Assembly (NCBI GenBank): GCA_028288785.1 | Contig: JAQGHV010000055.1 | Span: 1-47,895 of the forward strand | Direction: 5' to 3' | DNA: 47,895 nucleotides | From: Rhodospirillales bacterium | GTDB taxonomy: Bacteria > Pseudomonadota > Alphaproteobacteria > Acetobacterales > Acetobacteraceae | Part shown: positions 36,293 to 39,453 of the stretch, one piece after another | Position numbering within the stretch: the stretch's first letter is position 1 | Layout of the letters: the number at the start of each line of letters is the position of its first letter | Notes under the pieces: model-generated | The model's input: the letters and a program-made list of their open reading frames with translations, nothing else | The model's database searches: none | What the model was told of the DNA's origin: nothing | Made by a program: the position numbers and the translations under genes

Positions 36293-37120
36293 CTATACCG
36301 CCAGTTCCACCATCACGGGCACATGGTCCGAAGCGCGTTCCCACCCCCGCGCCGCCTTCAGGATGGTGTGGGCGTGCAGCCCCGGCGCAAGGTCCGGGCT
36401 TACCCAGACATGGTCGAGGCGCCGGCCGCGATCGGCGGCTTCCCAATCACGCGCTCGGTAGGACCACCACGTGTACAGCTTCTGATCGGTCGGCACGAAG
36501 TGGCGCAGCGCGTCGTGCCACGACCCCGCCCGCTGCCAGGCGTTGATGGCCTCGACCTCCACCGGCGTGTGCGAGACCACGGCACGAAGCTGCTTGTGCG
36601 ACCAGACATCGTGTTCGAGTGGCGCGATGTTGAGGTCGCCCACCAGGACGCTGCGCCGTGCCTGGCCGAGCGCCGCGTTCCAGGCTGTTGCCTCCGCGAC
36701 GAAGTCCAGCTTGTGGCCGAACTTCACGTTCAGCGCGCGGTCGGGAATGTCGCCCCCCGCCGGAACATAAAAATCATGCACGTCGATCGGCCCCGAGGGT
36801 GTCTGGAGCGTCACGCCGAGATGGCGGCAGTCGCCCTTCTCGCACCAGTTCGGGTCGTCGGCGCGCACCTTGAACGGGATGCGCGAGAGGATCGCGACCC
36901 CGTTGTAGCCCTTCATGCCGCGATGGGCGATGTGCTCGAAGCCGAAGGCGCGCAGACCCTCGACCGGAAACAGGTCGTCGGGGCACTTGGTTTCCTGCAG
37001 GCAGATCACGTCGGGTGCGAGGTCGCGCACGAGATCGCCCACCAACGGCAGCCGAAGGCGAACCGAGTTGATATTCCAAGTCGCGACCTTGAGGGTGCGG
37101 CGTGCGGGAGCGCTGGGCAT
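36293..37120 (-). CDS. xthA: Exodeoxyribonuclease III
   Basis: A 275-residue ExoIII/AP endonuclease of the EEP superfamily. Active-site blocks are ATWNINSVR, CLQETKCPDDLFP, KGYNGVAILSR, HDFYVPAGGD, VGDLNIAPLEHDVW, RRLDHVWVSPDL and SDHVPVMVEL. It cuts DNA 5' of abasic sites and trims 3' blocks in base-excision repair. ATG 37120 is used, with AAGGCGA eight bases upstream; the longer open frame lacks family similarity. Confidence 0.95.
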   Translation of the reverse strand: MPSAPARRTLKVATWNINSVRLRLPLVGDLVRDLAPDVICLQETKCPDDLFPVEGLRAFGFEHIAHRGMKGYNGVAILSRIPFKVRADDPNWCEKGDCRHLGVTLQTPSGPIDVHDFYVPAGGDIPDRALNVKFGHKLDFVAEATAWNAALGQARRSVLVGDLNIAPLEHDVWSHKQLRAVVSHTPVEVEAINAWQRAGSWHDALRHFVPTDQKLYTWWSYRARDWEAADRGRRLDHVWVSPDLAPGLHAHTILKAARGWERASDHVPVMVELAV

Positions 37121-37151: not shown

Positions 37152-37575
37152 TCAGCCCGCGGAGCAGCGAAGCCGGGTCCAACTGTAGCGCGGGGCGTCT
37201 GGCAGGCCGGCGAAACGCACCCAGGTCTCGGCCAAGACGGTGCCGCCCGCTTCCAGCGTGACGAGGTTGAAGGCGGTACGGAAAGGGCCGGCCGTACCAG
37301 GCATCGGCTCCGGAACCTGCCGGAAGGACAGTCCCGATGGGAGCGGCGCCAACTCGGAGCGAGCTTTCGCCGCCGTTCCCGCCACGGAGAACCAGCTCGG
37401 CGACGAACCCGTCGCCGACATGGACGCTCCACGTGCCGCCGGAGGTGACGCCCACCGCGAGGTTCTGTTCGATCACGCTACAGGCGCGGGGTGCGTCGGT
37501 GGCAGCCGCGCCGGTCGCGATGAGGAATGCGGCCGGGATGATGAGGCATAGATGACAGGCGCGGGCACAAGGCAT
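37152..37575 (-). pseudogene. Small exported hypothetical protein with apparent frameshift
   Basis: From ATG 37575 the frame starts with a signal-peptide-like segment (CLIIPAAFLIATGAAA) and continues sensibly through GTWSVHVGDGFVAELVLRGG. After that the continuation becomes Arg/Pro-rich. A second frame one base over gives LPSGLSFRQVPEPMPGTAGP, RTAFNLVTLEAGGTVLAETW and ends CSAG at 37152. Joining the two near 37360-37400 gives one exported protein of about 140 residues. No family recognised. A sequencing error, true pseudogene or misjudged frame are all possible. Confidence 0.45.
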
Positions 37576-37666: not shown

Positions 37667-38353
37667 TCAAACGATCTTGACGACCACGGTGCCAACGCCC
37701 TCGACCACGCCTTCCAGCAGGTCGCCACGCTCGACCGCCGCAACATTCTCCGGCGTGCCGGTCATGATGAGGTCGCCAGGTGCGAGGGTCACGAGCTGGG
37801 AGAGGTTCGCGATCACCTCCGGCACCGACCAGATCAGCTTGGATAGGTCAGAGGTCTGCCGGACCTTGCCATTGACCTTGAGTTCGATGAGGCCCTTCGA
37901 GACATCGATGCCGGCAACCGGAACCAGCGCGCCCATCGGCGCAGAATGATCAAAGCCCTTGCCCATGTCCCAGGGGCGGCCAGTCTTCTTCGCTTCGTTC
38001 TGCAGATCACGCCGGGTCATGTCGAGGCCGGCGCAATAGCCCCAGACGTGGCTCAGCGCATCCGCCACCGCGATGTTGGCGCCGCCGACGCCGATGGCGA
38101 CGACCAGCTCCATCTCATGGTGCAACTGCTTCGACTGCGGCGGATAGGGCATGTCGGCGCCGTTGATGACCAGCGCATCGGCGGGCTTTGTGAAATAGAA
38201 CGGCGGCTCGCGGGTGGGGTCGCTGCCCATCTCGATCGCGTGCTCGGCGTAGTTGCGGCCCACGCAGAAGATGCGCCGAACCGGGAACAGGGCGTCGCTT
38301 CCAGCGATGGGCAGCGCGGCGACGGGAGAAGGGGGGACGACATAGGAGGGCAA
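37667..38353 (-). CDS. Fumarylacetoacetate hydrolase family protein
   Basis: A 228-residue FAH-fold enzyme, the length of the fumarylpyruvate hydrolase/YcgM group. Landmarks are IFCVGRNYAEHAIEMG, FYFTKPADALV, HHEMELVVAIG (metal-ligand Glu), GYCAGLDMTRRDLQ, KGFDHSAPMG, and DLIMTGTPENVAAVERGD (split). It uses Mg/Mn to split a C-C bond in an acylpyruvate or decarboxylate an oxaloacetate-type substrate. The start is most likely TTG 38353, with GGAGAT seven bases upstream; no ATG fits. Confidence 0.9.
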   Translation of the reverse strand: MPSYVVPPSPVAALPIAGSDALFPVRRIFCVGRNYAEHAIEMGSDPTREPPFYFTKPADALVINGADMPYPPQSKQLHHEMELVVAIGVGGANIAVADALSHVWGYCAGLDMTRRDLQNEAKKTGRPWDMGKGFDHSAPMGALVPVAGIDVSKGLIELKVNGKVRQTSDLSKLIWSVPEVIANLSQLVTLAPGDLIMTGTPENVAAVERGDLLEGVVEGVGTVVVKIV

Positions 38354-38420: not shown

Positions 38421-38537
38421 AAAAAAAGCGCCCGGTCAGGGGGGTGACCGGGCGCCAGGCACGTTTTTCCGATCGGATTGGTCGGGCGAGCCGGGAGGGG
38501 AGCCCGGTCTCGTCCACCGGCGCTTAGTGGCCAGCCT
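38421..38537 (-). ncRNA. Candidate small RNA with C-rich hairpin loops
   Basis: On the minus strand an extended -10 box (TGC-TATAAT, 38550-38542) is followed by about 115 bases ending in an intrinsic terminator. Predicted stems in order: CCAC/GTGG; an 8-bp stem GAG-CCGGG/CCCGG-CUC with one bulged A and loop CUCCCCU; a short CCGA/UCGG stem; an A-rich linker; then the terminator stem with a CCCCCC loop and T7 tail. No reading frame of note lies inside. C-rich loops of this kind can pair with ribosome-binding sites. I cannot assign it to a known family. Confidence 0.55.
38428..38455 (-). terminator. Intrinsic terminator with C6 loop
   Basis: A perfect 11-bp stem (GCGCCCGGTCA 38428-38438 with TGACCGGGCGC 38445-38455) and 6-base loop, followed on the minus strand by seven T residues (38427-38421). 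It would end the candidate small RNA and any readthrough from the amidotransferase gene. Confidence 0.93.
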
Positions 38538-38541
38538 CAAG

Positions 38542-38550
38542 ATTATAGCA
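38542..38550 (-). promoter_or_regulatory. Extended -10 promoter of candidate small RNA
   Basis: Minus strand TGCTATAAT: consensus -10 hexamer plus the TGn extension. No good -35 element at 16-18 bases (GTGAAT at 17). Predicted transcript start about 38535-38537. Confidence 0.55.
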
Positions 38551-38634
38551 AGGCGATGAGACAAATTCACGTACTGATTTCATTTTAGACGCGCATCCAC
38601 GCATCTCTGCCATTCGACCAGCGCGGGTACTGTC

Positions 38635-39453
38635 CTATTCGGCGGCGAGGGGCACATTGATCGAACCAGCAGCACGGCGCGCTGCCCAGGCCCGACAGGC
38701 ATCGCCGAAGACTTCGAAAATGCGGCAACTCGACTGGTCGCGTTCCCAGTCATATTCGGGATGCCACTGCACGCCGAGCAGGTAGCCCGCGGCATCGGGG
38801 CAGGTCACAGCTTCGACCGTGCCATCCGGCGCCCAGGCTTCCGCATTCAACCGGGGAGCCAGGCGCTGGACCCCCTGATTGTGCAGCGAATTGACCGGCA
38901 GCGCGGCAGCGCCACCCAGCATCGCGGCGAGTTGGCCGTTGCCGGCGAGCCGGACGGCGTGGGCCTTGCCGACGCGCACGGACGGCAGCGCTTGGTCGGA
39001 CGGCGTCGAATGGTCCATGCGGCCATCGAGGTCCTGGATGCGCTGGTCCAGGCTCCCGCCGAGGGCGACGTTGAGTTCCTGCATGCCCCGGCAGATCGCC
39101 AGCAGCGGCAGCCCCGCCTCCACCGCGGCGCGGATCAGCGGCAGGGTCGTCGAATCCCGCTGCAGGTCTTCAGGCGTTCCCGGCGCGTGGTCAGGGCCCT
39201 CATAATGGCCCGGCCAGACGTTGCTTCGGCTGCCGGTGAGGATCAGGCCGTCGAGGCGAGGCAGCAAGTCCGCCACCACCTCGGGTCCCGCCGCCGGCAG
39301 CAGAACGGGCAACCCGCCCACAGGACCGAGCACGACGTGCACATAGCTGTTGGACGCAGCGTGGTTCGGCGTGCCGAACGTGCCGAATGCCTTGACGCAG
39401 CAGGAGATACCGATGAGTGGCCGCATGATTGTGTGATCGTGGAGCCTGGCCAT
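38635..39453 (-). CDS. Gamma-glutamyl-gamma-aminobutyrate hydrolase family protein (class I amidotransferase-like)
   Basis: A 272-residue class-I glutamine-amidotransferase-like hydrolase of the PuuD/peptidase C26 type. The nucleophile Cys is in LLAICRGMQELNVALGG and the His-Glu pair in GVQWHPEYDW; LILTGSRSNVWPGHY and NSLHNQGVQRL are family blocks. PuuD cleaves gamma-glutamyl-GABA in putrescine breakdown, but no other puu genes are nearby, so the substrate is open. Start ATG 39453 or, nine codons later, ATG 39426 (MRPLIGISCC); neither has a clear ribosome site. The gene is followed by a candidate small RNA and terminator. Confidence 0.88.
   Translation of the reverse strand: MARLHDHTIMRPLIGISCCVKAFGTFGTPNHAASNSYVHVVLGPVGGLPVLLPAAGPEVVADLLPRLDGLILTGSRSNVWPGHYEGPDHAPGTPEDLQRDSTTLPLIRAAVEAGLPLLAICRGMQELNVALGGSLDQRIQDLDGRMDHSTPSDQALPSVRVGKAHAVRLAGNGQLAAMLGGAAALPVNSLHNQGVQRLAPRLNAEAWAPDGTVEAVTCPDAAGYLLGVQWHPEYDWERDQSSCRIFEVFGDACRAWAARRAAGSINVPLAAE

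Follow-up and report, generated by a model that had tools for sequence, protein, structure and literature searches.

RusT (CCNA_R0199) is a small RNA (sRNA) of Caulobacter crescentus, 118 nucleotides (nt) long and encoded between lolA and xth (PMC11005374; mBio 2024). It folds into four stem-loops (SL1 to SL4), the last of which is a Rho-independent terminator. SL3 binds Hfq, and RusT pairs with its targets via the conserved cytosine C53 in the loop of hairpin 2 (PMC11005374). Iron starvation and zinc induce RusT, and the rusT promoter is bound by NtrX, which acts as a repressor (PMC11005374). We analysed a 47,895-nt stretch of DNA from a Rhodospirillales bacterium of the Acetobacteraceae (contig JAQGHV010000055.1, positions 1 to 47,895), hereafter called the window. 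A gene-free gap in this window carries a predicted sRNA gene of the RusT type at 38421-38537 on the minus strand, on which all features of the window described below lie. In our judgement, this gene quite probably encodes a free-standing Acetobacteraceae ortholog of Caulobacter RusT that pairs with G-rich sites in a small number of mRNAs.

Structure and conservation of the RNA gene

The gap of 281 bases extends from the stop of an amidotransferase gene (38635) to the probable start TTG (38353-38351) of a gene of the fumarylacetoacetate hydrolase (FAH) family. Direct reading of its minus strand revealed a promoter of the extended -10 type, then a body that folds, an intrinsic terminator and a T tract. 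This bore out the elements named in the original prediction, which were a minus-strand promoter, a hairpin whose loop reads CUCCCCU, and a terminator that has the loop CCCCCC and seven T residues. The extended -10 element TGC-TATAAT (TGCTATAAT) occupies 38542-38550, and a weak -35 element, GTGAAT, lies at 38565-38570 across a 17-nt spacer. Transcription is likely to start at 38537-38535, which gives a predicted RNA of about 117 nt.

The predicted RNA has four hairpins. SL1 (38516-38535) is a 5' hairpin of 6 pairs; when the single sequence is folded, its 3' arm and the base of SL2 compete. SL2 (38480-38515) carries the apical loop CUCCCCU (38496-38502), the predicted target-recognition site. 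SL3 (38468-38477) is a small hairpin, UCC-GAUC-GGA, and by its order it is the counterpart of the Hfq-binding hairpin 3 of RusT. SL4 (38427-38456) is the intrinsic terminator, with the loop CCCCCC at 38444-38439 and a tract of 7 T at 38421-38427. The original prediction was right about two of these hairpins, SL2 and SL4, and overlooked SL1 and SL3. It gave an 8-bp stem for SL2, which in fact has 5+4 pairs with a bulge, and an 11-bp stem for the terminator, which has 12 pairs.

The fold has an energy of -56.7 kcal/mol vs -44.1 +/- 4.0 for shuffled sequences (z -3.2), and none of 200 shuffles was as low. In the predicted ensemble, the probability of being unpaired is about 1.0 for both C-rich loops (0.99-1.0 for the SL2 loop). 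The terminator scan is weak by itself (1 found vs 0.5 expected). The decisive test of whether the structure stands above chance is conservation.

Using blastn, we found similar DNA in 17 of the 100 relatives searched. A covariance model, R1, detected the RNA in 91 of 299 Acetobacteraceae genomes, and a wider model, R2, in 54 of 385 genomes from a sample of Alphaproteobacteria. The window locus itself scored 115 bits with R1 over 38421-38537 and 99 bits with R2. The matches are nearly always single-copy per genome, and by name they include Roseomonas, Elioraea, Magnetospirillum, Telmatospirillum and Phaeospirillum. Both models are home-made and their E-values are rough, and the R2 matches on its own building sequences are not independent because R1 had found those sequences. 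Absences within the family and the class are not firm, since both searches used strict filters. Outside Alphaproteobacteria, the phylum sample gave only two weak matches (L221 and L216), and L221 turned out to be a terminator standing by itself where a gene ends. No plasmid-borne copies were found.

The original prediction had proposed a search for compensatory stem changes among relatives, and such changes were found. In an alignment of 14 sequences, built from sequence only and ignoring structure, the loops UCCCC and ACCCCCCU are invariant. The same alignment contains 25 cells with two-sided pair changes vs 7.9 after shuffling, a value reached in 0 of 500 shuffles, and controls with the structure slid along the alignment gave 0-7. 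Depending on the sequence, terminator pair 118/129 is AU, UA or CG, and the closing pair of SL2 is UG, UA, AU, CG or GC. Two-sided changes affect 4 of the 6 pairs of SL1, and all 6 in a second alignment. Class-wide, 232 two-sided changes were counted vs 60, in an alignment fitted to the structure. Of 60 folded loci, 52 have a UCCCC/CCCCC hairpin loop ahead of the terminator. Thus, the stems vary in a compensatory way and the loops stay fixed. A coding explanation was rejected, as no common start codon or reading frame was seen. At the level of sequence comparison, the gap is confirmed to hold a real structured sRNA gene, not a product of chance, that occurs in many alphaproteobacterial families.

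Some copies show variations of this plan. One contig (G214, C23) has two matches 2.3 kilobases (kb) apart, at 171108-171230 and 173515-173627. The second is weak (33 bits) and is possibly a duplicate or decayed copy. Six loci (L055, L067, L068, L071, L077 and L078) have an extra C7-C8 run (TGCCCCCCCGC) about 20 bases ahead of the match. The run seems to lie in a further 5' hairpin, so those copies may have three C-rich loops. Two others (L110 and L120) have a C-rich loop in hairpin 3 as well (CCCCCCAA), which also makes three. In copies of the Rhodospirillales type (L087, L099, L110 and L155), the SL1 loop is often GCAAU, which was not seen in Acetobacteraceae copies and is possibly a second conserved element.

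Promoter and gene neighbourhood

We compared the promoter regions of the matches within the family. In 57 of 59 promoters, there is a TTGNNT-like -35 element, a spacer that usually measures 17 or 18 nt, and TANNNT at a fixed distance, at the same place as the -10 element of the window. A promoter score of at least 8 of 12 was obtained for 52 of 70 loci vs 2.6% of shuffles. Relatives have TTGCAT at the -35 position; the TTGC is lost in the window and in L003, which belongs to the same genus, and GTGAAT stands there instead. The window promoter has the TGC-TATAAT extension. As read from these sequences, the RNA has its own conserved sigma-70-type promoter. Promoter, fold and conservation together support the original description of a structured sRNA that is a gene of its own and has apical loops rich in C.

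The predicted NtrX motif is GCA-N9-TGC (PMC7240162). It occurs in 20 of 70 family promoters vs 2.6 expected, with GCAAACGCCTTTTGC overlapping the -35 element, and in 16 of 48 class-level loci vs 1.2 expected, commonly some 66 bases ahead of the match; these counts take every locus alike and ignore kinship. In the class-level spacing controls, N6-N8 and N10-N13 were near background, and in the family controls N4 and N11 were also somewhat raised. GCA-N5-TGC was enriched at class level too (13/48 vs 1.9 expected), possibly because of overlapping half-sites of the NtrX-type motif. The window's genome encodes Hfq and an ntrC-ntrY-ntrX cluster.

One more element was seen in the promoter region. The DnaA-box-like TGTGGATA/TATCCACA lies inside it at 12 of 70 loci vs 0.16 expected (L006, L012, L027, L036, L038, L040, L108, L121, L143, L146, L178 and L188), and there is none in the window. 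Caulobacter rusT likewise has two predicted DnaA sites (PMC11005374).

In the family, the genes follow one another on one strand in the order amidotransferase, sRNA, FAH and xth. The upstream neighbour in the window (38635-39453) encodes a Peptidase_C26 or gamma-glutamyl-gamma-aminobutyrate hydrolase-like amidotransferase (PF07722, E 6e-63) and is a conserved neighbour. The downstream gene (37667-38353; start TTG placed by eye) belongs to the FAH family (PF01557, E 2e-54). It is followed by xth, encoding exodeoxyribonuclease III (36293-37093; TIGR00633, 169 bits, cut-off 99; the start is approximate and the listed open reading frame opens at 37432). At class level, lolA, the Peptidase_C26 amidotransferase gene or xth lies within about 1.5 kb in 46 of 53 matches. 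Probes for xth and amidotransferase, the only ones used at control loci, found these genes at 0 of 10. The order lolA, amidotransferase, RNA occurs in L050, L055, L246, L249, L252 and L257.

The neighbourhood bears on two other explanations of the RNA. It might be a processed 3' untranslated region (UTR) or the shared terminator of the amidotransferase gene, which is on the same strand and ends about 100 nt ahead of it, with no other terminator between. The conserved -35 and -10 elements with their spacer of 17 or 18 nt, present in 57 of 59 promoters, speak against this. So does the upstream gene, which according to lineage is an amidotransferase gene, lolA, a P-II gene or a divergent MarR gene; this variation, with a divergent gene in some lineages, makes a 3' UTR product unlikely, and we regard the explanation as highly improbable. 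The RNA might also be a riboswitch-like leader or attenuator of the downstream gene, as the terminator ends about 70 nt ahead of the FAH start. The gene on this side is FAH, xth or an unrelated or opposite-strand gene, its distance changes as well, and this variability speaks against a leader. We give this explanation hardly any weight.

Relation to RusT and predicted action

The RNA of the window, read here as a free-standing sRNA, resembles RusT in several respects. Both loci lie beside xth, and lolA is upstream of the RNA in many relatives of the window RNA. The lolA-xth location is thus found at class level, and half of it, the xth side, in the window. The lengths are similar (118 nt for RusT vs about 117 nt predicted here). 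Both RNAs have four stem-loops ending in a terminator, a plan that the fold and covariation support for the window RNA, and both have a small hairpin 3. The hairpin-2 loop is conserved in both; in the family of the window RNA, UCCCC is invariant in it, and its pairing role is predicted. NtrX is bound at the RusT promoter, the NtrX-type motif occurs in part of the promoters of relatives of the window RNA, and the host of the window has Hfq and NtrYX.

The case for orthology with RusT is built on the locus, the architecture and the promoter motif. Several observations weigh against it or against a free-standing RNA of this kind. No lolA was found in the window, where the upstream gene is that of the amidotransferase, and the window has no GCA-N9-TGC site. 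The terminator scan gave nothing in the interval that separates the sRNA from the amidotransferase gene, so read-through is possible. R1 found no match in 208 family genomes. In the three TonB-receptor genes of the window's genome we saw no convincing pairing, and the targets may therefore differ from those in Caulobacter.

A real sRNA with C-rich loops, unrelated to RusT, could have arisen at the same lolA-xth gap. This would agree with the missing lolA and NtrX motif, with a likeness known by locus, plan and motif, and with the report of homologs in close Caulobacteraceae only (PMC11005374). It would require a coincidence of locus, length, order of the four hairpins, hairpin-2 loop and class-level NtrX-type motif, and we consider it unlikely. 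Orthology with RusT is the reading we prefer. Beyond the window, we lean towards the view that RusT is an ancient alphaproteobacterial NtrX-controlled sRNA of the lolA-xth locus with two fixed C-rich pairing loops, in hairpin 2 and in the terminator, and that NtrX control was swapped for the extended -10 element in the window's genus.

The gene, its promoter, hairpins, loops and locus are conserved. A link to RusT would give the copies in Acetobacteraceae and Rhodospirillales a testable function involving NtrX, Hfq, the envelope and iron. It would also make RusT an RNA of the whole class and no longer of Caulobacter alone, which would allow target prediction by cross-genome comparison.

By analogy with RusT, we infer Hfq dependence, pairing in trans and a role in the cell envelope or iron. 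The sigma-70-type promoter would start the RNA near 38537, the intrinsic terminator would end it at 38421, and the RNA would fold into four hairpins. The hairpin-2 loop CUCCCCU would base-pair with G-rich sequence in a restricted group of mRNAs, at their starts or close by, and the terminator's C6 loop may be a second pairing loop. RusT and sX13 are the models for this: the hairpin-2 loop, and perhaps that of the terminator, probably recognizes G-rich sequence close to start codons. Such pairing would lower translation of the target mRNAs. Hfq probably binds at hairpin 3. Judging from the published motif, control by NtrX may be ancestral, with the site since lost from the window promoter.

The original prediction had spoken of anti-ribosome-site loops, complementary to AGGGGAG/GGGGGG-type ribosome-binding sequences. 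This label turned out to be too broad. UCCCCU differs from the ribosomal anti-Shine-Dalgarno sequence CCUCC. Among 88 usable starts from a 400-kb sample of relatives' genes, AGGGGA stands at the Shine-Dalgarno position in 3 and GGGGGG in 0. The rarity of these sequences makes a restricted target set more likely than a general block of ribosome sites. Target prediction on the same 88 starts gave no strong signal. Regulation in trans by base pairing may operate in this organism.

Comparison with other C-rich-loop sRNAs

At the gathering threshold, an Rfam search of the whole window returned nothing, and no family reached its threshold at the sRNA locus. The RNA had been called uncatalogued, which is true for Rfam; RusT, described in 2024, matches its locus, length and four-hairpin plan. 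Routine annotation will probably overlook a deeply conserved sRNA that Rfam does not contain.

A relaxed search gave ar14, anti-hemB and sX13, all of them sub-threshold. The best by score was ar14 (RF02344; 22.5 bits, E 0.03). The ar14 RNAs and SmelA075/A099 of Rhizobiales likewise have hairpins with C-rich loops, including the terminator loop, and differ in having CCUCCUCCC loops, several copies per genome and other loci (PMC3927594). On the strength of the score and a similar two-loop layout, the window RNA could be a member of this ar14 or NfeR1-type anti-Shine-Dalgarno family; the original prediction had likened it to alphaproteobacterial sRNAs with anti-Shine-Dalgarno loops. Its 22.5 bits fall short of the cut-off of 58.8, its loops are CUCCCCU (with UCCCCU) and CCCCCC, not CCUCCUCCC, and the weak ar14-like loci elsewhere share no synteny with it. 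We rejected ar14 as family and as ortholog, and consider membership extremely improbable. One locus, L219, has CUCCUCCC-type hairpin loops followed by a terminator and is nearer to the ar14 class than to the family of the window sRNA.

Membership in sX13 (RF02232) was rejected as well (18.4 bits vs a cut-off of 50). The sX13 RNA of Xanthomonas also has stable stems and apical C-rich loops, one of them in the terminator hairpin, and it pairs with G-rich motifs close to start codons (PMC3771888), as proposed here for the window RNA. It differs in that it lies beside polA, is reported to be Hfq-independent and belongs to Gammaproteobacteria (PMC3771888).

In GsrN of Caulobacter, a C-rich loop pairs with G-tracts (PMC5869019), as is predicted for the loop of the window RNA. 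GsrN has a Sigma-EcfG promoter near the general stress response (GSR) locus. The window RNA, with a sigma-70-type promoter beside xth, differs from it; the conserved promoter is TTGNNT-17/18-TANNNT and the neighbours are not GSR genes, and GsrN was rejected.

The alphaR8/suhB/SisA-D RNAs are likewise conserved alphaproteobacterial sRNAs with a C/U-rich core. They differ in that this core, UUUCCUCCCU, is single-stranded and the gene lies beside an N-formylglutamate amidohydrolase gene (PMC12559287). The window locus was not among the matches to suhB/alphaR8 (RF00519, cut-off 41). Two matches over this cut-off lie elsewhere in the window's genome, at G000:C343:3321-3393 and G000:C194:4073-4153.
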